51,849 bases of DNA from a virus. The stretch is from the IMG/VR virus record IMGVR_UViG_3300003691_000008, positions 1-51,849 of that record, one strand, 5' to 3'. Below, piece by piece: positions 1,722-38,982 of this stretch (positions are counted from its first letter, which is position 1; each line of letters starts with the position of its first letter). Position numbers and translations under genes: made by a program. The notes beneath the pieces were generated by a model. That model was not told the origin of the DNA. It worked only from the letters and a program-made list of their open reading frames with translations, and made no database searches.

Positions 1722-3689
1722 CTAATTATATTTTTTCAGCAAAGCATTGGCTTTATTTGGCAAAAATAACACTCTATTCGTTTTTAATGTTTGAGGGTAT
1801 TTATTCAAACCTGTTGCAAGAATTACTTGATAATTCTTTTGATAATCATCAAGAGCTTCAAGTTTATTTATGCACTTAATTAAGTTATCTAGCTCTATTC
1901 CTGCTGTCTCTGGGGTATCAACAATTAAAAACTTAGGAAAAGCCACATCATCATATTTTAATGACATGTTCATCAAAGCAACATAGTACATCATTCTCAT
2001 AGATACTAATGAACTTGCTTCTCGGTATTCACCATCATTAATAAGTGGCAGGTAGTCATCTAAGCTTATACGCGCAGATCTACAATCTGATAATGTATCG
2101 GTCATTAATTCATTGTAAATAGCACTAAAAGCACTTACTTTGGTACTAACTTCTCTTTTTGTTTTTGATTCTAACTCTTTTCTTTTTAATTCTGCATCTT
2201 GCGCTTTAGAACGTTTAGCTTCAAAATCTTTTTGGAGTTTTTGAAGCTTGCCTTCGATTTCAATTAACTGTTCTAGTTTTCCACTATCCTCTCGAATATC
2301 AAGAATTTTATCATCAATATCATTGAGACTATCAATATCAATTTCATCATCAATTTTTTCAAGATTTTTTCTTAGGCCAGACTTTAAACTAGGTAATTTA
2401 GCTGATAATTCTTTAGACTTACCCTTTTCCTGTTGTATATCCAAATTACAATCTGAGATGGCTAACTTTATAGTCGCTAACGTTTTAGTTTTTGATTTTA
2501 ATATTTCTTTATATTCTTGAGATGTATAAAAAAATCTTTCATATTGCTCTTCATTAATATCTGAACCACATACACATTTACCATGTCCTCTATCGACTTT
2601 TACTAAGCAGTATGGACAAGTATCACCAGAAAATAAATTTAATTGATCATGTGTATGTATTATTTTGCTAATTTGATTTATTTCACTGATGGTCTCATTC
2701 TGAATTGTAACTAATTTATATCTTTCATTATAAAGTGATAATAAAATTTCTTTTATATCCCCTAGCTCTAATTCTATTTCTATAATTTGGTTCTTTAAAT
2801 GCTCTATATTGGGCTCAACCGAAACTCGGCAATTTCGGTTCTTCTTAAATGCTTCTCTAGCAGCTTGCAATTTTTCTAACTGAAGATCATTAGCACGCTG
2901 CTCATTTTGAAGGAAATTAATGTTTTTTAGCTCACCATCACCTCTGATTTTGTCGGCTAGTAATGAATATTCATTTACCAAGCTTTTAGCTACATTCTTA
3001 TCTTTATCTTTTGTTTTAGCATCAACGATAGAGTCATAGTATTCAGAAAATGATTTACCGATTAATAATTCAAAAATAGCTTTACGTAAAATTTCAGAAT
3101 CAGACACATGATTTTGCTTGATATCTATTTTTTTATAAATATATTCTGGATCTGGCTGTTGATCGTGATACATCAATCTGAAGAGATCGGTAGAGTTAAT
3201 TTTGAAGGTGGAATACCCTTGATAAATTTCAACTACAGAAATACCAAGCTCTTTTAATAACCAGTCAGAAAAAGTATATGGCGTATTTTCTCTACGATAT
3301 ATTGGTAATATAGAAGTGTTTTGAGCATATTTATCTGTGGAAAATGTAATATTTCCATTTTCGGGATCTATTAATTCATCATATTCTGTAAGTGTTACAT
3401 CATTATCATTCAGATATCTTCGTAATTGGTAGTTTCCAACAGAAACCGATATATATATTTCAACGTAATTATTTGTATCTGAAGTTACTTCTTTGTGTTT
3501 TTTCTTTTCGCTATCTTTACGAAATTCTTCAACTCTACCGCCAAAAGCATAGTAAATTAAGTTACAAAGAGTCGTTTTTCCAGTACCATTATCACCTTCA
3601 ATTAATACAATGTTTTTGTCAAAAATTTCTGACTCAAAATGATATTTGTCTCCAGAATAGATAACTTGATTGACTCTTAAATAACCCAT
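1722..3689 (-). CDS. SMC/RecF-like ABC ATPase of a three-gene conflict system
   Basis: A 655-aa ATPase. The P-loop EGDNGTGKTT is at residues 31-40. A coiled-coil arm (about 220-500) is interrupted near the middle by a cysteine cluster, CPYC at 358-361 and CVC at 372-374, which looks like a zinc hook. A signature-like helix lies around 558-572, and a C-terminal Walker B with catalytic glutamate (LIVDTPETAG, D591/E594) closes the domain. This is the layout of the chromosome-scale ABC ATPases used in three-component conflict systems (ABC-3C class described by Aravind and colleagues). It overlaps the upstream gene by 13 bp, so translation is probably coupled. By inference it senses or handles nucleic acid and gates the partner effector. 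An overcoming-lysogenization-defect or RecN-like protein is less likely given the neighbours. Confidence 0.7.
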   Translation of the reverse strand: MGYLRVNQVIYSGDKYHFESEIFDKNIVLIEGDNGTGKTTLCNLIYYAFGGRVEEFRKDSEKKKHKEVTSDTNNYVEIYISVSVGNYQLRRYLNDNDVTLTEYDELIDPENGNITFSTDKYAQNTSILPIYRRENTPYTFSDWLLKELGISVVEIYQGYSTFKINSTDLFRLMYHDQQPDPEYIYKKIDIKQNHVSDSEILRKAIFELLIGKSFSEYYDSIVDAKTKDKDKNVAKSLVNEYSLLADKIRGDGELKNINFLQNEQRANDLQLEKLQAAREAFKKNRNCRVSVEPNIEHLKNQIIEIELELGDIKEILLSLYNERYKLVTIQNETISEINQISKIIHTHDQLNLFSGDTCPYCLVKVDRGHGKCVCGSDINEEQYERFFYTSQEYKEILKSKTKTLATIKLAISDCNLDIQQEKGKSKELSAKLPSLKSGLRKNLEKIDDEIDIDSLNDIDDKILDIREDSGKLEQLIEIEGKLQKLQKDFEAKRSKAQDAELKRKELESKTKREVSTKVSAFSAIYNELMTDTLSDCRSARISLDDYLPLINDGEYREASSLVSMRMMYYVALMNMSLKYDDVAFPKFLIVDTPETAGIELDNLIKCINKLEALDDYQKNYQVILATGLNKYPQTLKTNRVLFLPNKANALLKKYN

Positions 3690-4204
3690 GTTTTTATGCC
3701 TCGTTCCCTGTAGATTTTACCTAACATAGTATCCAGAGTAAGTGTTGATAGTCGTTTTATATTAGTTTTCAAACTGTTTAAGTTATTATATTCTTTTCCA
3801 AAAACTTTTTTATCAAAGAATGTTTTTGGTAGGTTTTTCTTATTTAATGATACGTTCACTAGCGATGAAATATTTCCTTTTTCCAGAGAGATAAACCCTT
3901 TTTTCTCTAAAGTAAAAAGTAATTTCAGAACCTCACTACGTCTCGTTAACCCATTGGAGTAGCTGTTAAATAAATATTCTTTATCAATATTGTTATGTGA
4001 TTCTGAATCTAAGTTATTTAATATGTACACTAGCCTTTCATCTTTTATAAAATCGATTATAAAAGCGAGCTTTCTGTAATCTTTAAAATATTTACCATCA
4101 TTGCATTTTAATGAATCTAGAGTAATTATTACTGCATAGCAAAATAGATAAAAATCTTCACCGGATAAGTACATTATTCCTTTTTTGACATTAATATTTT
4201 TCAT
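3677..4204 (-). CDS. Putative middle component (winged-helix-like) of the ABC three-gene system
   Basis: A 175-aa protein with no obvious catalytic motif. It contains the pattern YRKLAFIIDFIKD (about residues 43-55) and a helical region RSEVLKLLFTLEKKGFISLE (about 88-107) that reads like the recognition helix and wing of a winged-helix domain. Proteins of this size and shape lie between the effector and the ATPase in ABC-3C operons and are called middle components; I assign it by that context. Its start lies one base from the end of the upstream gene (stop 4205-4207) and its end overlaps the ATPase start, so all three genes form one translationally coupled unit. Confidence 0.6.
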   Translation of the reverse strand: MKNINVKKGIMYLSGEDFYLFCYAVIITLDSLKCNDGKYFKDYRKLAFIIDFIKDERLVYILNNLDSESHNNIDKEYLFNSYSNGLTRRSEVLKLLFTLEKKGFISLEKGNISSLVNVSLNKKNLPKTFFDKKVFGKEYNNLNSLKTNIKRLSTLTLDTMLGKIYRERGIKTWVI

Positions 4205-5431
4205 TTATTTCTCGTCAAACGAAACAAAACAGCTATCAATCAAATCCATGACAACGCCATCAATTGTATTTTTATTAGATATTGTATAATTGTAGTCTTT
4301 TTTCAATTCTTCTATATGCTCAGATGATGCCGCATTTAACCCTTTAATCGTTGAATCTACTTCAGCTATAGAATTAGGCTCTGGAAAATCGTTATCGAAC
4401 AAATATTGATTACAAGCTTCATATGTTCGGTATTTAAGAGAGAGAAAAGACTTGTTGCCTGCTAGCTGTTCTACTTTAGAACGGCTAGCTAGTCGCGCCA
4501 AATGTCCCAGTTTTCGCTCAGGGTAATCAGGGCATACAGATATTATTTTTTCTGATAAGTTACGTTTATCCGTAATTTCTTTCTCTAAGGCTTCAATTGA
4601 ATTCCAAGTTGGATCAGTTGCATGATCTATTTCTTCGGACTCAGCTTCTTTAAAAACTAGCCTTACATCAGATGAATGAACAAACCTACCTGCATAACTT
4701 GAATTATTTTGTCTTTCATCAATAAGTTCCATCAATAAAGAAAATATAATTTCTTCTTTATTTGCTATTCTTGAATTGTATAACTGAGAGTTTCTTATTA
4801 AAGATAGGACAGTAGTTTTTAAATCTACTTCATTTTCTTCACCAAAATGCCATTTAATCCTATCTAAAAAATTTTTAAAATCGTCAGAATTAATAACTTT
4901 TAAAGTCTCAACGTGGCCATCAACTTTTTTATCTTGGTATTGCTTTGTATACTCTTCTAATACAATTGATTTTACGGTGTCAACCAGTTCTAGTGAAGTT
5001 GAATCATTACTCATTAAAATCGACAGGATTGGCTCTTTAGGTAATTTAATAATAGTGCCATTATCGAGCTTTGTCTTTTTTTCCTTTCCTATACCTGAGG
5101 TTGTATAAAAACCGAGGTTTAATTCATCACTAGCACGCCAAGTATTAATGTAAATATCAAAAAAACTGACTAATGTATTTTTAACTTCATTACTGAAAAT
5201 AGTAAAATTAGTCTTTGAATCATAATTTTTATCTTCTTCTACATATTGCGCTGACAATTCACTAGATTCAATTGTGTGGGAAATATCTTCGATGACTTCT
5301 ATTGCAGTGTAGAAAATAGAACTTTTTTTATGGTTTAAAGAATCAAGCATTAACTTGATGGCTCGAATTTTTTGTAGCCTAAATCCTTTTGACTTATCTG
5401 CCGCTTCGCGGTTGATTGTTTTATTTTCCAT
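4205..5431 (-). CDS. Putative restriction-endonuclease-fold effector (DUF4297/Cap4-like N-terminus)
   Basis: The first gene of the leftward operon encodes about 408 residues. The N-terminal 100 residues read GFRLQKIRAIKLML, then AIEVIEDI, then EEDKNYDSKTNFTIFS. This recalls the E...D...(E/Q)xK core of DUF4297/Cap4-type dsDNA nucleases, with Glu-Asp in AIEVIEDI and Lys in EDKNY as candidate catalytic residues. The remaining 300 residues are helical and unrecognised and probably serve as sensor or adaptor. I chose ATG at 5429-5431; a TTG at 5441-5443 is in frame and nearer an AGGG box, so the start is uncertain. Role by inference: nuclease effector held in check by the downstream components. 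The nuclease call rests on motif reading only. Confidence 0.5.
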   Translation of the reverse strand: MENKTINREAADKSKGFRLQKIRAIKLMLDSLNHKKSSIFYTAIEVIEDISHTIESSELSAQYVEEDKNYDSKTNFTIFSNEVKNTLVSFFDIYINTWRASDELNLGFYTTSGIGKEKKTKLDNGTIIKLPKEPILSILMSNDSTSLELVDTVKSIVLEEYTKQYQDKKVDGHVETLKVINSDDFKNFLDRIKWHFGEENEVDLKTTVLSLIRNSQLYNSRIANKEEIIFSLLMELIDERQNNSSYAGRFVHSSDVRLVFKEAESEEIDHATDPTWNSIEALEKEITDKRNLSEKIISVCPDYPERKLGHLARLASRSKVEQLAGNKSFLSLKYRTYEACNQYLFDNDFPEPNSIAEVDSTIKGLNAASSEHIEELKKDYNYTISNKNTIDGVVMDLIDSCFVSFDEK

Positions 5432-5485
5432 AATATATGTCAAGAGCCCTGCGCTAGTAATACTTAATGTTTTTGTTGTTATGTA

Positions 5486-19024: not shown

Positions 19025-20092
19025 ATGACACCAGTAGAACTTTTAGAGCATTGTGAAAAACGCATTCCTTTTAATACTATGCGCAGCATTTTAAAGGGTA
19101 AAGATATGCCTACTCATGGAGGTTGGTCTAAAACAGTGAGTGCCTATAAAGATAAGTTAGAGGAAGATCCAAACTTTGAAAGTAAAGTGATGTCATTAGA
19201 AAGCACATATAAGCATTATCTTCTAGCGGGTGATAAAGTTGTTTCTATTTATAAAGTAACTGATGATATTACTGATGCTATGTTACGTTTTACAAATGCC
19301 TTTGATATTAATAACGTTAGAAAAGAAGACTGTGTTTATGAAGATGACTATCCCTTTCCTGTTAAAGATCTTACCGGGATAAATTCTGATGTAGAAATTG
19401 TTTACAGTAAAAGTATTAATGGCAAGTTAACCCTTGGCTTTTGTTCAACCAGAAAAATAGAAGAGCATGTAAAAGTTGCTATTGAAGAATTGGACACCAA
19501 TACCCAAGCCAGTTTTTCTGATTATACAGAGCTGTTTGGTACTAAACGTTATCGAAGACAGTTATTTGACTTTGTTGTTATTGATACGATTAATAATTAC
19601 GTTGAGTATCGAATTGACGCTTCCAATGGTCTGTCAGTTAAAGATATAGAAAAGTCATTATCACGTGTAAAAGCTACTTTTTTAACTATGCTGCATGGCA
19701 CTGATGTTGATGAGCATAAATTACTAGCGCATAACTTGTACCCTAAAATAGGTACTTTATATGATAGTAATGAAGGACGTGTATGTGAGCTATCTTTTAC
19801 CGTTGACAGCGGTGGTACCTTTAATGAAAGAATGAGAGGGACCACTGTAGATATACGTAATGAAGAGTTTCACAGTGCTGGTATGCGAGCGGTAGAAAAG
19901 ATTAATACTTATAAAATTGCCGTACGATGGCCTGTAGATGCAAATAATGAAGAAAATAAATTAGAGCTAGAATTACTGCTTAATAGCAGTATGAACGAAA
20001 CCTATAATACAAGACCCACACTGTTTAGTGCATCTATCTTAAAGTGCTATACTGTAGATCAATATAATGCACTTTTAGACAAAATATTATAA
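19025..20092 (+). CDS. Unknown protein, first gene of prophage cargo triad
   Basis: A 355-aa protein I do not recognise. Start ATG 19025 has AAGGGA 7 nt upstream. The first 50 residues are helical (ELLEHCEKRIPFNTMRSILKGKDMP); the middle (residues 85-250) is mixed and includes YTELFGTKRYRRQLFDFVVID; the end is beta-rich (TYKIAVRWP, KLELELLLN). No nucleotide-binding or catalytic signature is evident. It lies 9 bp before the next gene and in one run with a PD-(D/E)XK nuclease gene. In this prophage position (between repressor and lysis genes) defence and exclusion genes are typical, so a sensor or specificity role is plausible. Confidence 0.6.
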   Translation: MTPVELLEHCEKRIPFNTMRSILKGKDMPTHGGWSKTVSAYKDKLEEDPNFESKVMSLESTYKHYLLAGDKVVSIYKVTDDITDAMLRFTNAFDINNVRKEDCVYEDDYPFPVKDLTGINSDVEIVYSKSINGKLTLGFCSTRKIEEHVKVAIEELDTNTQASFSDYTELFGTKRYRRQLFDFVVIDTINNYVEYRIDASNGLSVKDIEKSLSRVKATFLTMLHGTDVDEHKLLAHNLYPKIGTLYDSNEGRVCELSFTVDSGGTFNERMRGTTVDIRNEEFHSAGMRAVEKINTYKIAVRWPVDANNEENKLELELLLNSSMNETYNTRPTLFSASILKCYTVDQYNALLDKIL

Positions 20093-20101
20093 TATAAAAA
20101 C

Positions 20102-20509
20102 ATGTTTATTATCGATAATGTCATTGAACAGGCTTCAGCAGACTTGCCCAATAAAGAACTTTATAGGGCATGTTTTAATGTGTGTGAATATATTAAAAAT
20201 ACTAAACCATCATTACTTCAGCATATTAACTACTCTACGCTATATACAGCGTCTAAAGCTGAAAATACCGAGCTACTACTTCAAACCATTCAATACCTAA
20301 CCGGCGGTAGAACGCAGGTTCTTGACTCGGCTTATGAGCTTTTTTATGGTGATTTTCCTATTCAAATAGAAAAGTCTTATTTAGCTGAAGCAGATAGAGA
20401 TGGTGTATTTATACACCCTGAAACAGGTGAAACAATAGATAACTACCAATCTTTCATAGAAGTCTATTTTAAGCTTTCTGATAAAGTATCTAAGGCTTGG
20501 AATCTGTGA
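20102..20509 (+). CDS. Unknown small protein, second gene of cargo triad
   Basis: A 135-aa, mostly helical protein (ELYRACFNVCEYIKNTKPSLLQHINYSTLY). The C-terminal half carries an acidic stretch (AEADRDGVFIHPETGETIDNYQSF). No family is recognised. The start at ATG 20102 lacks a good Shine-Dalgarno. The stop (TGA 20507-20509) is interlaced with the GTG start of the nuclease gene, so the two are translationally coupled and probably act together, for example as an inhibitor or adaptor of the nuclease. Confidence 0.55.
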   Translation: MFIIDNVIEQASADLPNKELYRACFNVCEYIKNTKPSLLQHINYSTLYTASKAENTELLLQTIQYLTGGRTQVLDSAYELFYGDFPIQIEKSYLAEADRDGVFIHPETGETIDNYQSFIEVYFKLSDKVSKAWNL

Positions 20510-21165
20510 GTAGAGAAGAAGAAATAGGAAAGCTAACTTTAGCAACACTCCAATTATCGTCAGCTAATGATCCTTTGATAAAAAGTATCTACAAAAAATT
20601 GCTTGTTCATGATTACAATTCTTTTGTTGATTACGTAGAGGATGAATTATCTACTTGTATTCAGCAACTAGAGTCCAACCCAGAACACCATTGTAATAAA
20701 GGGGAAGATGAGGTCACTATTTCTCTTCGGGATATGTTAGTGATGAAAGGAGTAGATGCGGAACATGATGTACAGCATGGTGGTCATGTGGATTTGTTTA
20801 TTAAGCAAGCCTCTTGGAAGTATCATGCTGAAGCTAAAATTTACAAAGGTAACGTTAATAGTTATGAAGGTTGGCTGCAATTAACCACGCGCTATGCATC
20901 AGGCAACCCTTGTAATAAAGGCTGTATTTTATTGTACCTCCAAGAACACGCTGGCACACTGGATGTGATGAAAGGCTGGAAAGTACATGTTGAAGATAAA
21001 GTTGACGATATAAGTGTTAATTTTTGTGGAAAAAACCCTTTAGCTTTAGTGTCTACCCATACATTGTTAAGAACAGGTTTGCCTTACCATATTAGGCATC
21101 TACCAGTATCATTATATTTTAAACCTTTAGATAAAAGCGGTCGAAATAGCAAGAAGTACAATTAG
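20506..21165 (+). CDS. PD-(D/E)XK-type nuclease, third gene of cargo triad
   Basis: About 219 residues from GTG 20506, which overlaps the previous stop as GTGA and has AAGG 9-10 nt upstream; a TTG at 20497 is a worse choice. The core reads GGHVDLFI (D96) then KYHAEAKIY (E109-x-K111), with E66 or E68 (GEDEVTISL) on the preceding helix and EGWLQLTTRY afterwards: the order E...D...ExK...Q of PD-(D/E)XK restriction-like nucleases. The N-terminal 60 residues are helical. The active-site set looks intact. Likely a DNA-cleaving effector; it could also be a simple restriction endonuclease, but there is no methylase in the neighbourhood. Confidence 0.65.
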   Translation: MSREEEIGKLTLATLQLSSANDPLIKSIYKKLLVHDYNSFVDYVEDELSTCIQQLESNPEHHCNKGEDEVTISLRDMLVMKGVDAEHDVQHGGHVDLFIKQASWKYHAEAKIYKGNVNSYEGWLQLTTRYASGNPCNKGCILLYLQEHAGTLDVMKGWKVHVEDKVDDISVNFCGKNPLALVSTHTLLRTGLPYHIRHLPVSLYFKPLDKSGRNSKKYN

Positions 21166-27783: not shown

Positions 27784-28079
27784 CCGAATTTATTATGTTA
27801 GATATAAGTTTTCAAGATTTCGTTTTTTATCTTTTTTTAATTCCTCTTTCTTCTGTTGTTGGTATGTTTTGGACTACACGTATTTTATATGTGTGCATGC
27901 TGATAAGAGATATTTACGCTTGTTGTTTTTATCAATGTTTAGGCTTTGGAACTAAAAAAGGTAAAAATGGCGAAAAAGATAAAGAAGTTCCCATATTCAA
28001 AGTAAAAACTAATGTTGTGTATTTAGGGTTAACGTTTATCAGCCATCGTAAAGCGAGGAAAGCTAACAATGACAGCTAG
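27780..28079 (+). CDS. Small membrane protein inserted between portal and MuF genes
   Basis: A 99-aa protein. Two adjacent hydrophobic segments (FVFYLFLIPLSSVVGMFW, residues 14-31, and a Cys-rich ILYVCMLIRDIYACCFY, 35-51) are followed by a basic tail. Five Cys cluster around residues 38-54. No family recognised. It sits inside the normally conserved portal-MuF pair and may be a late-expressed cargo gene acting at the membrane. Confidence 0.5.
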   Translation: MTEFIMLDISFQDFVFYLFLIPLSSVVGMFWTTRILYVCMLIRDIYACCFYQCLGFGTKKGKNGEKDKEVPIFKVKTNVVYLGLTFISHRKARKANNDS

Positions 28080-31533: not shown

Positions 31534-32451
31534 ATGATTGTTACTTCAACAACACTTAACGCTTTGCGTACTGGTTTTAGTAAACATTTTCAAGACGGTA
31601 AAAATGGTGTTAAACCACAATTTACTAAAATTGCCACAATTATACCTTCAACAACAGCCACTAATACTTATGGCTGGTTAGGTGAATGGCCAGGCTTTAG
31701 AGAATGGATTGGTGATCGTGTTCACAAGTCAATGAAAGAGCGAGATTACACCATTGCTAACAAAGACTGGGAAAGCTCAGTAGATGTACAACGTAATCAT
31801 ATTGAAGATGACCAGCTGGGCATTTACGACCCTATGTTTAAAGAAGCTGGCCGTGCAACTGAATTGTTTCCTGACGAATTGGTATTTCCACAATTGGCAT
31901 TAGGTGAAACAACCACTTGTTACGACGGTCAGTTCTTCTTTGATTCAGACCATCCAATCAATGCAGAAGTTGATGGTAGTGGCGCTGATGTTAGCGTGAC
32001 AAACATGATAGTTGATGTCGTTTATACAGGCGACACCTGGTACATGATGTGTACTAGTCGTGCTTTAAAACCAATTATTTATCAAGAACGCAAAAAGCCA
32101 CAATTTACAGCGATGACAGCCTTAACTGATGAAGCCGTTTATACAGCGAAAAAGTTCCGTTATGGCATTGATTTACGCAGTAATGCTGGTTTTGGTTTTT
32201 GGCAAATGGCTATCGCAATCAAAGCCGCACCTACGCCTGATGTTATTTGGCAAGCGATGGAGTTGATGAAGTCTTTCACTGCTGATGGTGGTCGTAAGCT
32301 TGGTCTAGTGCCTGATTTAATTGTTGCTCCATCATCTATTGAAAAAACACTAACACGCATTTTAGAGCGAGAGCTTTATGAAGAAAATGGCGCAGCAGTA
32401 ACTAATGAGCTTAAAGGTAAGTTTGAATTGCTTGTAGCACATCAACTTTAA
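31534..32451 (+). CDS. Major capsid protein (Mu gpT-like)
   Basis: A 305-aa protein. STTLNALRTGFSKHFQDGKNGVKPQFTKIAT near the start, TYGWLGEWPGFREWIGDR, and FFDSDHPINAEVDGSG are conserved gpT signatures. HK97-like fold by family knowledge. It lies 2 bp after the protease/scaffold gene and before a strong terminator, consistent with high expression. Confidence 0.93.
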   Translation: MIVTSTTLNALRTGFSKHFQDGKNGVKPQFTKIATIIPSTTATNTYGWLGEWPGFREWIGDRVHKSMKERDYTIANKDWESSVDVQRNHIEDDQLGIYDPMFKEAGRATELFPDELVFPQLALGETTTCYDGQFFFDSDHPINAEVDGSGADVSVTNMIVDVVYTGDTWYMMCTSRALKPIIYQERKKPQFTAMTALTDEAVYTAKKFRYGIDLRSNAGFGFWQMAIAIKAAPTPDVIWQAMELMKSFTADGGRKLGLVPDLIVAPSSIEKTLTRILERELYEENGAAVTNELKGKFELLVAHQL

Positions 32452-33163: not shown

Positions 33164-33583
33164 ATGTTGTATTGCAGCAAGCAAGGTTTAATTGACCGCT
33201 TTAGTGAAGATGAATTAGTTCAACTTACTGACCGTGACAGTTTAGGCGTTATCAATGATGAAGTACTAAACAGAGCGATTGAAGATGCCAGCACTGAAAT
33301 GGACGCGTATTTATCGCGCTTCAATTACAGTGCTGACAACTTGCCCAAGTCACTTAAACCGCTTGCTTGCGATATTGCTCGTTATCGTTTGTACGATGAA
33401 GAGCCAATTGAGCATATAACTACTCGCTACAACAACGCCATTAAGTTTTTAAAAGCCGTTAATAAAGGTGAAATCACTATTGGTACCACCGATGCTGATA
33501 CTGAAGTAACCAGTACTGATTTAGCTGAAATGCAAAGTGCTGGCACTGTGTTCTCTCGTGACAAATCCAGCGGTTTTATTTAG
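33164..33583 (+). CDS. DUF1320 head-tail joining protein (Mu gp36-like)
   Basis: A 139-aa protein. YCSKQGLIDRFSEDELVQLTDRD, AIEDASTEMDAYLSRF and KPLACDIARYRLYDE are the DUF1320 hallmarks. In Mu-like phages this protein is thought to act as the head-completion/adaptor protein between portal and tail. It is placed as in Mu after gpT. Confidence 0.88.
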   Translation: MLYCSKQGLIDRFSEDELVQLTDRDSLGVINDEVLNRAIEDASTEMDAYLSRFNYSADNLPKSLKPLACDIARYRLYDEEPIEHITTRYNNAIKFLKAVNKGEITIGTTDADTEVTSTDLAEMQSAGTVFSRDKSSGFI

Positions 33584-34218: not shown

Positions 34219-35139
34219 ATGAAATTTAGTGAAAAATTATTACTCGCAAAAATTGAAGCCACTTATGGCGTAGATTCGTCACCCGGTGCAACCAATGCCA
34301 TTTTAGCGAAAGACGTTGAGCTAACACCGCTTGAAGCGGAAGCCTTAGAACGTGGTTTAGTTAAACCGTATTTGGGCGCTGATGAATCTATTATCAGCGG
34401 TGAGCATGTGCTTATTAGCTTTAAAATCGAATTTCAAGGCAGTGGCACAGCGGGAACAGCTCCCGCATGGGGGCCTTTAATCCGCGCCTGTGGTTTTGCC
34501 GAAACGATTGCGGCAGTAACGTCTGTTGAATATGATTTAGCGGCAAGTAATTACGAAAGTGCCACGCTGTATTTCAATATGGGCAAGAACCTACACGCCA
34601 TGAAAGGTGCACGCGGTAATGTCAAAGTTAGTTTAGAAAAAGGCATTCCGTACCTAGAATTTAATTTTATTGGCCTTTGGGTAGATCCAACCCAAGTTGC
34701 TGCAGTAACGCCAAATTGGTCACTTTGGCAAAAACCGACACCAACGGGTGTTGGCCGCACTTCAGGTTTTAGCATCAATGGCTTTGCCGCTAAACCTTAC
34801 AAACTATCGGTTGATGTGGGTCAAGACGTTAAATTTATTGAAACATTAACGACGCAAAGCGTTGATATTAATGAGCGTAAAGCCAGCGGTTCAGTCAGCA
34901 TTGAAGCGCCTGACTTGTCAGTTAAAGATTTCTTTAGTGATGCTAAAAACTCCACTACGGGTGCCTTGGCTATTCAACACGGCCAAGTGTCTGGTCTTAT
35001 CTGCAAAATTGATTGCCCTAAAGTACAAGTTAAAGCCCCGAAATATGGCGATAACGAAGGCACGGCCAGTTTAGATATGGATTTGATCTTAATTCCGACC
35101 AGTGCCGGCAACGACGAAATAAAATTGACCTTAACTTAA
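34219..35139 (+). CDS. Tail tube protein (siphovirus-type)
   Basis: A 306-aa, beta-rich protein. KFSEKLLLAKIEATYGVDSSPGATNAILAKDVELTPLEAE at the start and LIRACGFAETI... are typical of the long-tail tube proteins of B3/D3112-like transposable phages and other siphoviruses. It replaces the sheath plus tube pair of Mu: no contractile sheath gene (gpL-like) is present, so the virion should have a long, flexible tail. Followed by a palindromic terminator. Confidence 0.82.
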   Translation: MKFSEKLLLAKIEATYGVDSSPGATNAILAKDVELTPLEAEALERGLVKPYLGADESIISGEHVLISFKIEFQGSGTAGTAPAWGPLIRACGFAETIAAVTSVEYDLAASNYESATLYFNMGKNLHAMKGARGNVKVSLEKGIPYLEFNFIGLWVDPTQVAAVTPNWSLWQKPTPTGVGRTSGFSINGFAAKPYKLSVDVGQDVKFIETLTTQSVDINERKASGSVSIEAPDLSVKDFFSDAKNSTTGALAIQHGQVSGLICKIDCPKVQVKAPKYGDNEGTASLDMDLILIPTSAGNDEIKLTLT

Positions 35140-35218: not shown

Positions 35219-35237
35219 GGCTGTTTAAACAGCCTTT
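35219..35237 (+). terminator. Terminator/attenuator after the tail tube gene
   Basis: The 16-bp perfect palindrome GGCTGTTTAAACAGCC (35219-35234) is followed by TTTAATTTTAT. A moderate intrinsic terminator, probably leaky, reducing expression after the abundant tube protein. Confidence 0.7.
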
Positions 35238-35256: not shown

Positions 35257-35580
35257 ATGTTTACAATAATGAATAATCCCATTGTGTGGTGGCCTGTTGT
35301 TATTAACATGCCAATTGATGGTGGTGAAACATCAAAGCACGAAGTCAGTTTGCAGTTCGAAATTTTAACCGAAGATGAATATGACGAGATAGTAGTAAAG
35401 GGTGAGAAAGCTATTTTAAAACGTGTCATTAAAGCGTGGAAACATATTGATGATATTGACAAAAAGCCCCTTGAATTCACCGTTGATAATCTGGATATGT
35501 TATTGAAAAAAAGCTTTGTACATCGTTCATTTATGGTTGGTTATCTCAACGCCGCTATTGGTGAAGTAGTAAAAAACTAA
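35257..35580 (+). CDS. Tail assembly chaperone G (zero-frame product)
   Basis: A 107-aa protein located between the tube and tape-measure genes, where the chaperone of long-tailed phages always lies. The last codons are GTA AAA AAC TAA, giving the slippery heptamer A AAA AAC at 35571-35577 in exactly the frame needed for a -1 slip. GCCGCTGC/GCAGCGGC (35583-35590/35601-35608) forms a GC-rich 8-bp hairpin 5 nt downstream. Most ribosomes stop at TAA, some continue into the next ORF. An in-frame ATG at 35269 is an alternative start. Confidence 0.8.
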   Translation: MFTIMNNPIVWWPVVINMPIDGGETSKHEVSLQFEILTEDEYDEIVVKGEKAILKRVIKAWKHIDDIDKKPLEFTVDNLDMLLKKSFVHRSFMVGYLNAAIGEVVKN

Positions 35581-35608
35581 CAGCCGCTGCTAAAGACTGG
35601 GCAGCGGC
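35571..35608 (+). promoter_or_regulatory. Programmed -1 ribosomal frameshift signal
   Basis: Heptamer A AAA AAC (35571-35577), 5-nt spacer, then a perfect 8-bp GC-rich stem with a 10-nt loop. After slipping, translation proceeds LTAAAKDWAAAP... and is open straight into the ORF ending at 35918. All elements of a lambda G/GT-like frameshift are visible. Confidence 0.87.
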
Positions 35609-35918
35609 ACCTCTTGTAGAGAGCAGCACAATTAAAGAGATGAAAGCCCACGGTGCACCCAAGGAAATTATCGACGAGTTAACCAAAGTGAAAAACTTTG
35701 GCGTGTTCCCACAAAATTGGCCCGTTGTTGTGTGGTTTGTTCAAGTTTGCGATTTGATGCGCTATCGCAGTGACGGTGCATGTTTAGGGCTTGATTTACC
35801 ACAAATTGAGTCAGACGCAAAGCTAAGTGAACGATGCTTTACCAAAGCACATTACAACGGTTTGCGCATCATGAGTAGGGCAGCCGCTAGAGCATTAAAT
35901 AAGGTAAATGATGACTGA
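35577..35918 (+). CDS. T extension of tail chaperone GT (DUF1799-like, made by frameshift)
   Basis: Read in the -1 frame from CTA at 35577. About 113 extra residues; the segment KNFGVFPQNWPVVVWFVQVCDLMRYRSDGACLGLD matches the DUF1799 type seen in the same position in other siphoviruses. The ATG at 35640 has no Shine-Dalgarno and lies inside the open -1 frame, so I treat it as part of a G-GT fusion rather than an independent gene. GT is thought to bind tape measure and tube protein during tail assembly. Confidence 0.78.
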   Translation, partial: LTAAAKDWAAAPLVESSTIKEMKAHGAPKEIIDELTKVKNFGVFPQNWPVVVWFVQVCDLMRYRSDGACLGLDLPQIESDAKLSERCFTKAHYNGLRIMSRAAARALNKVNDD

Positions 35919-38900
35919 TTTAAAACTAGGTATTGTTTTTGATGTTAAGAACGGCAGATTCAAGTCTGAAGTTAAAGAAAATACTCAAGCGTTCGATAAG
36001 TTCAGCGTTTCTACCGAACAAGCGTCAACAACGACCAAGCATTTTGATAAAAGCTTAGGCCTTTCAAATTTTACCTTAGCGAAAACTAATAAAGTCACTC
36101 AAGCCGTCGGTCGCGGTATAGAGATGATGAAAAAAGAGGTCAAACAAAGCGCCTCTGTTGTCAATGTGTTTGCTAAAGAAGCTCAAGGTGCGGCAACTAA
36201 AGTAAACCAGTTTGATCGTAACACTAAGCAAGTCACGCCTAAGGTTCGAAGCCTAGGTTCATCAACGCAAAAAGCAGCTGGTCAAGCCCGTCAGTTTAAT
36301 GCCGCCATTGACGACACCAATACCAAGTTATTTAAAACCAATAAAGTTGCCACAGGTGTTAAAAACGCTATTGCGGGTCTAGCAGCTGGTTTTGGTGCCA
36401 TTCAACTTGGCAAAGGCTTAGTAACCGAACTCGCTGCCTTTCAAGACATTCGTACCCGTTTACAAGGTCTTTCTACCGATGCATCAGATTATGCCGATAA
36501 AGAACGCTGGTTAATTGATTTAGCTACCGAACATCATAAAGAATTAAACGGCCTAGCTGATGGTTATAGTCGCTTATCGACATTAACCCAAGAAAAAATC
36601 ATCACTGATGGCCAAGCCAGAGACATGCTGGAGGGCTTATCAAATGCAGCGGCACAAAATGGTGCTGGAACGGCTGATTTAGAGCGAGTTTATTACGGTT
36701 TAGCCCAAGCACTTGGCCAAGGCGTAGTGCAAATGCAAGAAGTTAATCAGGTGGTTGAACCCTTACCAGGCTTAATGACTAAATTAGCTCGTGCTGCAGG
36801 TGAAGAGACTGGCGCAGGATTTAAAGCCCTTATTGCTTCAGGCACCATAACCTCTGAAGTGTTCGGCACTTTATTAGTTAAAGCGTTAAGCGAATACGAT
36901 GGCGCTGCCGCTAAAACCGCAGATAACATTAATGCCAAATACCGTGACATTAAACTTGAATATCAATTATTAGCCGTTGAATTAGAACAACCAATTAATG
37001 GTGCCTTATTGCCAACGCTTGATGGTTTAGCTTCGGGGCTATCATTCCTTAAAGACCATGCGACAGCTGTTATTACCATTTTACAAGGGGGTCTTGTTAT
37101 TGCTGCTGGTCATGCGACCACCGCAATTATAGCGAAAACATCGGCTACCGCTAAAAGCATCATTGCTGCACGTATTAGTACGCGAGCATCAAGGCTACAG
37201 GCACAAAGTGAGTACAATTTAGCAGTGGCTTACAAAGCATCTGCTGTAGGTAGTGTACAAAATTCACTTGCAGACAAACGATTAATTGCCAGTAAAACGG
37301 TATTAACTGCTGCAACGAATAAAGCAAACTTCGCCCTTAGAGCGGGTGGTGGTGCGATGGCATTACTTGGCGGTCCAGTGGGTGTTGCTATGTTAGCGGC
37401 TTTTGCTGTTGGCACTTATGCCATGAGCGCTGCTGATGGCGCGAGAGAGAGTACCAACTTAGCCAATAAAGTCAGCTTAGCGAATAAAAAACTGACCGAA
37501 TTAACTACTAAACAATTACGCTTAAGATTGTTCGAACTTGAAAATGATCCCGCGGCAGAAATTGACAAAGTTCGCTTAAAAGCCCTTAAAGCCCAAGAAG
37601 AATATAATAAGGTTCAAGCAGCGCGTGGTTTTAAAAATCCTAATAAAGAATCTGAAAAAACAGTATTGAATCGTGATGTTGAAATTGAAGCATTAGAACT
37701 TAAGCTATCAAAAATAACCACCTTAAAATCCAAAATAGAGACATTACTAGCCAAGCCATCAGAAGGACAAAAGCCAGAAGCACCCACTACCCAAAGCGGC
37801 AAAGTATTAGACGTATTTAAAGACCAAGAAGCCGCTTTTAAAAGACAGCTGAGTTTACTCGGTAAAACCACAGAATTGGCCAAAGCCGAGTATGAAACTC
37901 AGCTAGGTAAGTACAAAGACTTACTCCCAGGTCAAAAAGAAACGATCGTTAATTTGGCTAAAGAAGTTGATGCTAAAAAAGCAAGCATCGCAGCGGATAA
38001 ACAAGCGCTTCAACAATCTGAACAACTTGAACAATCTGCACAAAGTTATGCCGAGACACTCCAGCGAAAATTATCTCTTTCAGGTGAAGTGACTAATGTT
38101 CAACAACTGGCTTATGAGCTAGAGAATGGCAGTTTAATTGGCATTAACGACCAATTAAAAGAGCAATTAATGTTAAAAGCTCAGCTTGCAGATAGAGTTG
38201 AAGCCGATGCCGAAAAACAGTTGCCTTTTTGGGAGCAGATGAATGAGCACATTGCGAGTACTACTGAAAATTTTGATGTGATGTGGGGTAATTCATTTGA
38301 CCGTTTTGCTCAAGGTATTGGTGATGCGACAGCAACGTCAATAATGGAAGGTCAGAGTTTTAGTGATGCCATGAAAAATATTGGTCGCTCAGTTATTAAA
38401 GAAGTAATCTCAGGCATTGTACAAATAGGTGTTAAAAAACTCGCTCTATTTGCCATTGAGAAAGTCATTAATAAAGGCACTGCTACTTCAGCAGCTATGG
38501 TGATGTCGGCTAATGCTTCAGCAACTGCCATGCAGGCTGGTTTAGCTACTTTTGCATCTATTTCGGCTATTCCTGTTCTTGGCCCTGCTGCAGCTCCTGC
38601 TGCCATGACGGCAGCATTAGCGGTGGCAGGCCCTATGGCTGGTGCTATTACCGCTGCTTCAGCAGGTATGGCAGGCATGGCTCACGATGGTATTGACGAA
38701 ATCCCTCGCGAAGGTACCTGGTTACTTGATAAAGGTGAACGCGTAGTTGATAGCCGCACCAACCAAGATTTGAAACAAGCTTTAAAATCTGGAAACAACT
38801 TAGGCGGCTCAAAGGTCACGGTAAACCTTATCGAAGATGCGTCGAAAGCTGGCCAAGTTTCGCAAAGCAAAGGCTTAAACAATGAAGACGTTATCCGCAT

Positions 38901-38982
38901 TTTTGTCGCTGATATTCGTCAAGGTGGTGATAGCGCCGACGCTGTAGAAATGACCTATGGACTACAAAGGGCGGGAACGTAA
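35908..38982 (+). CDS. Tape measure protein
   Basis: A 1024-aa protein, by far the longest in the assembly block. Long helical stretches are seen at 1-170 and 520-760. The conserved tape-measure domain lies at about 160-365 (DLERVYYGLAQALGQGVVQMQEVNQVVEPLPGLMTKLARA). Hydrophobic, Ala/Gly-rich segments at 390-410, 480-505 and 885-935 could enter the inner membrane during DNA ejection. Counted at about 1.5 angstrom per residue, the tail would be roughly 150 nm. ATG 35911 is an alternative start. Confidence 0.92.
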   Translation: MMTDLKLGIVFDVKNGRFKSEVKENTQAFDKFSVSTEQASTTTKHFDKSLGLSNFTLAKTNKVTQAVGRGIEMMKKEVKQSASVVNVFAKEAQGAATKVNQFDRNTKQVTPKVRSLGSSTQKAAGQARQFNAAIDDTNTKLFKTNKVATGVKNAIAGLAAGFGAIQLGKGLVTELAAFQDIRTRLQGLSTDASDYADKERWLIDLATEHHKELNGLADGYSRLSTLTQEKIITDGQARDMLEGLSNAAAQNGAGTADLERVYYGLAQALGQGVVQMQEVNQVVEPLPGLMTKLARAAGEETGAGFKALIASGTITSEVFGTLLVKALSEYDGAAAKTADNINAKYRDIKLEYQLLAVELEQPINGALLPTLDGLASGLSFLKDHATAVITILQGGLVIAAGHATTAIIAKTSATAKSIIAARISTRASRLQAQSEYNLAVAYKASAVGSVQNSLADKRLIASKTVLTAATNKANFALRAGGGAMALLGGPVGVAMLAAFAVGTYAMSAADGARESTNLANKVSLANKKLTELTTKQLRLRLFELENDPAAEIDKVRLKALKAQEEYNKVQAARGFKNPNKESEKTVLNRDVEIEALELKLSKITTLKSKIETLLAKPSEGQKPEAPTTQSGKVLDVFKDQEAAFKRQLSLLGKTTELAKAEYETQLGKYKDLLPGQKETIVNLAKEVDAKKASIAADKQALQQSEQLEQSAQSYAETLQRKLSLSGEVTNVQQLAYELENGSLIGINDQLKEQLMLKAQLADRVEADAEKQLPFWEQMNEHIASTTENFDVMWGNSFDRFAQGIGDATATSIMEGQSFSDAMKNIGRSVIKEVISGIVQIGVKKLALFAIEKVINKGTATSAAMVMSANASATAMQAGLATFASISAIPVLGPAAAPAAMTAALAVAGPMAGAITAASAGMAGMAHDGIDEIPREGTWLLDKGERVVDSRTNQDLKQALKSGNNLGGSKVTVNLIEDASKAGQVSQSKGLNNEDVIRIFVADIRQGGDSADAVEMTYGLQRAGT

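Follow-up and report, generated by a model that had tools for sequence, protein, structure and literature searches.

A programmed −1 frameshift probably fuses two tail genes

In the tail module of the window (the whole 51,849-nucleotide stretch of viral DNA analyzed here), the sequence very strongly suggests a programmed −1 frameshift at positions 35571–35577, aided by a hairpin, which would make two proteins from one start: a tail assembly chaperone, G, and a G-T fusion. Most ribosomes would stop at the abutting TAA and release G (107 aa), while a smaller share, probably of a few per cent, would slip back one base and read on to 35918, producing G-T (220 aa).

The ORF encoding G (35257–35580, + strand, as are all the features of this locus) ends with GTA GTA AAA AAC TAA. 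Direct reading of the sequence places the slippery heptamer A_AAA_AAC at 35571–35577, in phase with this ORF, and the 0-frame stop TAA (the “intercodon”) directly 3′ of it at 35578–35580. A spacer of 5 nt (35578–35582) separates the heptamer from a putative stimulatory hairpin (35583–35608), in which 35583–35590 pairs with 35601–35608 through 8 Watson-Crick pairs (G-C/A-U) and a closing U-G pair. The hairpin has a predicted stability of about −18.8 kcal/mol (z of −4.2 against dinucleotide shuffles) and none of 200 shuffles was as stable. Open from 35565, the −1 frame reads LTAAAKDWAAAP... and ends at the stop 35916–35918. As the upstream −1 stop leaves just 6 nt ahead of the heptamer, the frame switch is confined to the heptamer spot. 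An earlier note on this DNA had described an in-frame heptamer, a 5-nt spacer, an 8-bp GC-rich hairpin, a zero-frame stop right after the heptamer and an open −1 frame leading to a DUF1799-like ORF before the tape measure gene; our analysis agrees with it base for base, adds the U-G pair and places the ORF in DUF1799 through its relatives.

The abundance of the heptamer was rejected as evidence in itself, AAAAAAC being found 33 times in the window for 35 expected. The excess over chance lies in the heptamer's phase, in the stop abutting it, in the hairpin and in how well the site is conserved.

G and T lie between the tail tube and tape measure genes

The tail genes are ordered as tail terminator (33594), tail tube protein (34219–35139; Phage_tube_2, 3.2e-9), G (35257), T and tape measure protein (35908–38982; TMP_3, 1.9e-34). 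G matches the profiles phrog_313 (“tail assembly chaperone”) and phrog_569. Window G itself has no match to PF08748 (Phage_TAC_4), which is matched by 25 of 55 aligned homologues (best 8.4e-35). The fold predicted for G (pLDDT 88) is similar to BFVD models of “tape measure chaperone” proteins, themselves predictions; a search of the PDB with the same model returned nothing significant. A match of G to the alkaline phosphatase PhoD (NCBIfam, E 0.002) was dismissed, as it falls far below the cut-off of that family.

The T domain occupies the −1 frame at 35577–35918 (113 aa, starting LTAAAKDW). Window T scores 17.4 bits against PF08809 (DUF1799), for a Pfam cut-off of 26, and 56 of its 57 aligned homologues match DUF1799 at E ≤ 0.01; on the sequences of these relatives, T is assigned to DUF1799. 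Structure prediction gives a confident helical domain for T. The identification of G as a gpG-type tail assembly chaperone and of the −1 ORF as a DUF1799 “T” domain is supported. The predicted fusion is correctly defined as join(35257..35577,35577..35918), a 0-frame read followed by a −1 read, which gene callers split and truncate.

PHROGs 569 and 680, and likewise RefSeq phage records, give both halves the label “tail length tape measure protein”. Given the G/T arrangement at 35257–35918 this label is misleading, apparently an annotation error. The ATG of the tape measure gene overlaps the end of T (35908–35918), so there may be coupling between its translation and the ribosomes that complete GT.

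The slippery heptamer is conserved among relatives

A first set of 82 loci was collected from the T alignment (80 viral contigs and 2 genome contigs). The pattern X_XXY_YYZ was present in the right register in 81 of them, the remaining locus being cut by the contig end. Clustering at 85% left 43 sequences, window included. As the window's own protein had served as the seed here, we drew a second set from 398 bacterial genomes using the PF08809 profile alone, and the heptamer was found in all 29 loci obtained. In the combined set, 72/72 non-redundant relatives carry the heptamer in register (58 A_AAA_AAC, 13 G_GGA_AAC, and 1 A_AAA_AAG); as many of these loci share ancestry with one another, the counts are not independent events and overstate independence. 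The stop abuts the heptamer in 66 of the 72 and lies 3–105 nt further in the others. At 355 control ORF ends from the 43 viral-contig loci, A6C or GGGAAAC was never found against the stop, and any X_XXY_YYZ was found once.

Heptamer and abutting stop are also present in 18 of 20 named phages. The two exceptions, ST22 and Taid, both lack the heptamer: ST22 (L167, about 690–704) has CAA AAG CCC|TGA and Taid (L170, about 678–692) has CAA AAG|TAA, in which the shift tetramer A_AAG abuts the stop, and neither contains X_XXY_YYZ. Their sequences suggest that they slip on A_AAG instead. Together with the synteny and the profile matches of relatives, the presence of the heptamer in these two collections supports a programmed −1 frameshift producing a G-T fusion.

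T coding sequence extends upstream of start codons

A standard gene caller would start T at the in-frame ATG 35640 (truncated ORF 35640–35918), and callers choose such starts in relatives. If T were translated independently or by termination-reinitiation from this codon, the heptamer would be incidental. We consider this very unlikely, and ATG 35640 is probably not the real T start. A functional ribosome binding site at this ATG was part of what the earlier note had set against a frameshift; the ATG is there, but its Shine-Dalgarno-like stretch (AGAGAG, 13 nt away, −2.9 kcal/mol) is weak and badly spaced, whereas those within the operon reach −7.5 kcal/mol. Moreover, residues 1–8 of T lie ahead of any start codon and yet are conserved. 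In most loci T opens right after the slip with LxxAA..W or a close variant, and its first residue, L1, is kept in 90% or more of A5. ATG, GTG, and TTG are absent from the first 8 codons of the −1 frame in 66/72 relatives, and no start codon occurs anywhere between the upstream −1 stop and codon 8 in 44/72. As these residues usually precede any start codon, they would normally be reached by slippage alone. The heptamer, kept throughout the combined set, also argues against independent translation of T.

A −1 product could otherwise arise at the RNA level, if RNA polymerase added one A in the A6 run so that part of the mRNA carried G and T in frame. The window and most relatives do have six consecutive A, which is short for slippage by a bacterial polymerase. 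However, GGGAAAC, found in 13/72 relatives and in several named phages, contains no run of more than three G or three A and retains the tandem-slip logic of X_XXY_YYZ. These members favor tandem tRNA slippage over polymerase slippage on an A run, and we give the latter next to no probability.

As the earlier note anticipated, gene calls split the two halves. A joined CDS is annotated in one of the 20 named phages (Serratia phage Smarc2); the other 19 either list G and T as two genes or have no T gene. The note had also proposed the junction peptide VVKNLTAAAK as a target for mass spectrometry. This peptide does span the junction but contains a tryptic site, and the diagnostic pair is NLTAAAK versus LTAAAK (after ...VVKK); the former would arise if AAC were decoded before the slip, the latter if the slip came first.

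RNA folding downstream of the slip site is under selection

The 36 nt following the site were compared with recodings in which the −1 protein and the codon usage stayed unchanged. The fold was more stable than these synonymous recodings, with a mean z of −1.25 at the 72 loci versus −0.29 at 432 control stretches (p 5e-8). The window hairpin alone gave a z of −2.16 against recodings of the same −1 peptide (p 0.03). In the 72 relatives, the first paired base lies most often 4–5 nt from the heptamer. Since the stem is identical in the four sequences closest to the window, no covariation signal is available there; covariation was set aside as uninformative and replaced by the recoding test.

From this anatomy and by analogy with lambda gpG/gpGT, we infer the slippage itself, its efficiency and the roles of the proteins. 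G would coat the tape measure protein while the T domain would recruit tail tube subunits, in which case slippage efficiency would set the G:GT ratio. This ratio is 30:1 in lambda (PMC5009743), and 6–7% slippage was measured in an HK97-like chaperone cluster (PMC3711429). Some observations speak against a hairpin-aided programmed frameshift: in E. coli, A_AAA_AAG is far more slippery than A_AAA_AAC (PMC5009743), the stem, being identical in the window's close relatives, gives no covariation among them, and no good hairpin is predicted in some relatives (L053, L091). Low slipperiness of A_AAA_AAC would nevertheless fit a need for little GT.

The abutting stop codon as a possible working part

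Without excluding the main reading, the stop may itself be a working part of the site. Slippage would then occur post-translocation, when the A site holds the stop and the E and P sites hold the AAA and AAC tRNAs, so that the release factor would compete with slippage and set the G:GT ratio. We think this less likely than not. That the abutting stop is selected and functional across the whole DUF1799 chaperone family, with termination tuning the G:GT ratio and tail assembly, seems to us just as doubtful. The stop abuts the heptamer in 66/72 relatives where 36 were expected, with a maximum of 53 in 100,000 simulations that took Leu (CTN) at T position 1, codon usage and the observed next base as inputs and ignored shared ancestry. 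By comparison, the distance from slip site to 0-frame stop, which is zero in these 66 relatives, averages 26 nt in SEA-PHAGES genomes (PMC10885494). Taid, which lacks the heptamer, still keeps its A_AAG tetramer against the stop. In addition, E/P-site slippage with stop intercodons has been proposed for bacterial ribosomes, and a response to release factor is reported in PMC4373837, which cites Horsfield 1995 for it.

On the other hand, all three stops are used (39 TGA, 15 TAA, and 12 TAG), the simulation is blind to shared ancestry, and a stop placed at this position reduces HIV-1 frameshifting (PMC4373837). The stop may also do no more than terminate G at the earliest point, or be a consequence of the conserved Leu. 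As sole cause, Leu at T position 1 was found insufficient by the same simulation, with the same phylogenetic caveat. If the stop does work in this way, termination itself would tune how tails assemble across a very large phage group.

Comparison with known systems

The lambda heptamer is G_GGA_AAG. The window differs from lambda in its heptamer (A_AAA_AAC), in its directly abutting stop and in having T in DUF1799. The likeness to lambda gpG/gpGT lies in the position between the tail tube and tape measure genes, the −1 direction, and a short chaperone accompanied by a longer fusion for which low-level slippage is expected. The window has the features used to recognize gpG/gpGT pairs, namely the placement of the ORFs, T in the −1 frame, an in-phase X_XXY_YYZ in the overlap and a suitably spaced RNA structure. 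The lambda frameshift is outlined in the review PMC5009743 (Levin 1993; Xu 2004, 2013, 2014).

Burkholderia phage KL1 carries GGGAAAC directly before the TGA of gp18 (PMC3483164). Its gp18/gp19 pair shares with the window RRR_AAA_C right before the 0-frame stop, a predicted stem-loop and a −1 fusion, but KL1 has GGGAAAC instead of AAAAAAC and an extra gene between the chaperones and the tape measure gene (PMC3483164). T1-like and related coliphages (such as Sfin-3, Sd1, PaulFeyerabend, and HK639; Phage_TAC_4 and DUF1799) have the same T family, the same heptamer-stop layout and a similar start of T (the G-T junction of PaulFeyerabend reads ...KN|LIEAAR); in these phages T is annotated separately or left unannotated, and the likeness rests on the tail chaperone genes. 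The P. aeruginosa D3112-group Mu-like siphophages and PaMx73 resemble the window in their Mu-like head and replication genes and flexible tail (PMC4378225). PaMx73 also has a proposed −1 frameshift in its tail chaperones, but at a T_TTT_TTC site 43 codons before the stop (PMC4378225), so the likeness drawn here is one of layout. The −1 sites of Rous sarcoma virus and barley yellow dwarf virus likewise have a heptamer directly followed by the 0-frame stop (PMC4373837), although they involve eukaryotic ribosomes and unrelated genes.

The frameshift mechanism is textbook, abutting-stop cases have already been published (KL1, PMC3483164), and the window site is a new example. A possible novelty is the family-wide rule that DUF1799 is a frameshift-made domain, with RRR_AAA_C and an immediate stop, usually left unjoined in annotations. 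No such statement was found in the literature searched, in which one paper on DUF1799 turned up, with no frameshift in it; key older papers lay outside the search, so we do not claim priority. Under the rule, DUF1799 would gain a concrete identity as the T half of a tail chaperone, made by frameshifting. DUF1799 T occurs in more than 1,000 phage records (roughly 1,100), many labeled “tape measure” or “hypothetical”. A strict heptamer-stop rule would also offer a natural system, in ordinary coliphages of K-12, for bacterial −1 slippage with an A-site stop and release-factor control.

Phage context

Mu-like genes for the head (Mu F-like at 28069, gpT at 31534, and gp36 at 33164) are present on this 51.8-kb virus contig, together with a tail module of the non-contractile type. 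The opposite strand encodes a transposase-like protein, which has an integrase core and adjoins an AAA ATPase, an arrangement resembling MuA/MuB, on which we infer the Mu assignment of this pair. The nearest relatives are found in Colwellia psychrerythraea ND2E and in a gammaproteobacterial assembly.

Between the tail tube gene and G, a terminator-like hairpin (GGCTGTTTAAACAGCC and TTTAATTTTA; 35219–35234, + strand) is kept in close relatives, and HK639 and phiPMW have annotated terminators at the matching position in the tube-G gap. This hairpin may lower transcription past the gene of the abundant tube protein.

Three consecutive ORFs at 19025–21165 (+ strand; 355, 135, and 222 aa) found no match in Pfam or NCBIfam and no convincing one in PADLOC, and possibly form a cargo module. 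A three-gene cluster at 1722–5443 (− strand) encodes a 655-aa ATPase with a match to Lamassu LmuB profiles (E 7.7e-61), a 175-aa wHTH-like protein and a 412-aa protein without match; it looks like a Lamassu-type anti-phage defence system on a Mu-like phage record.
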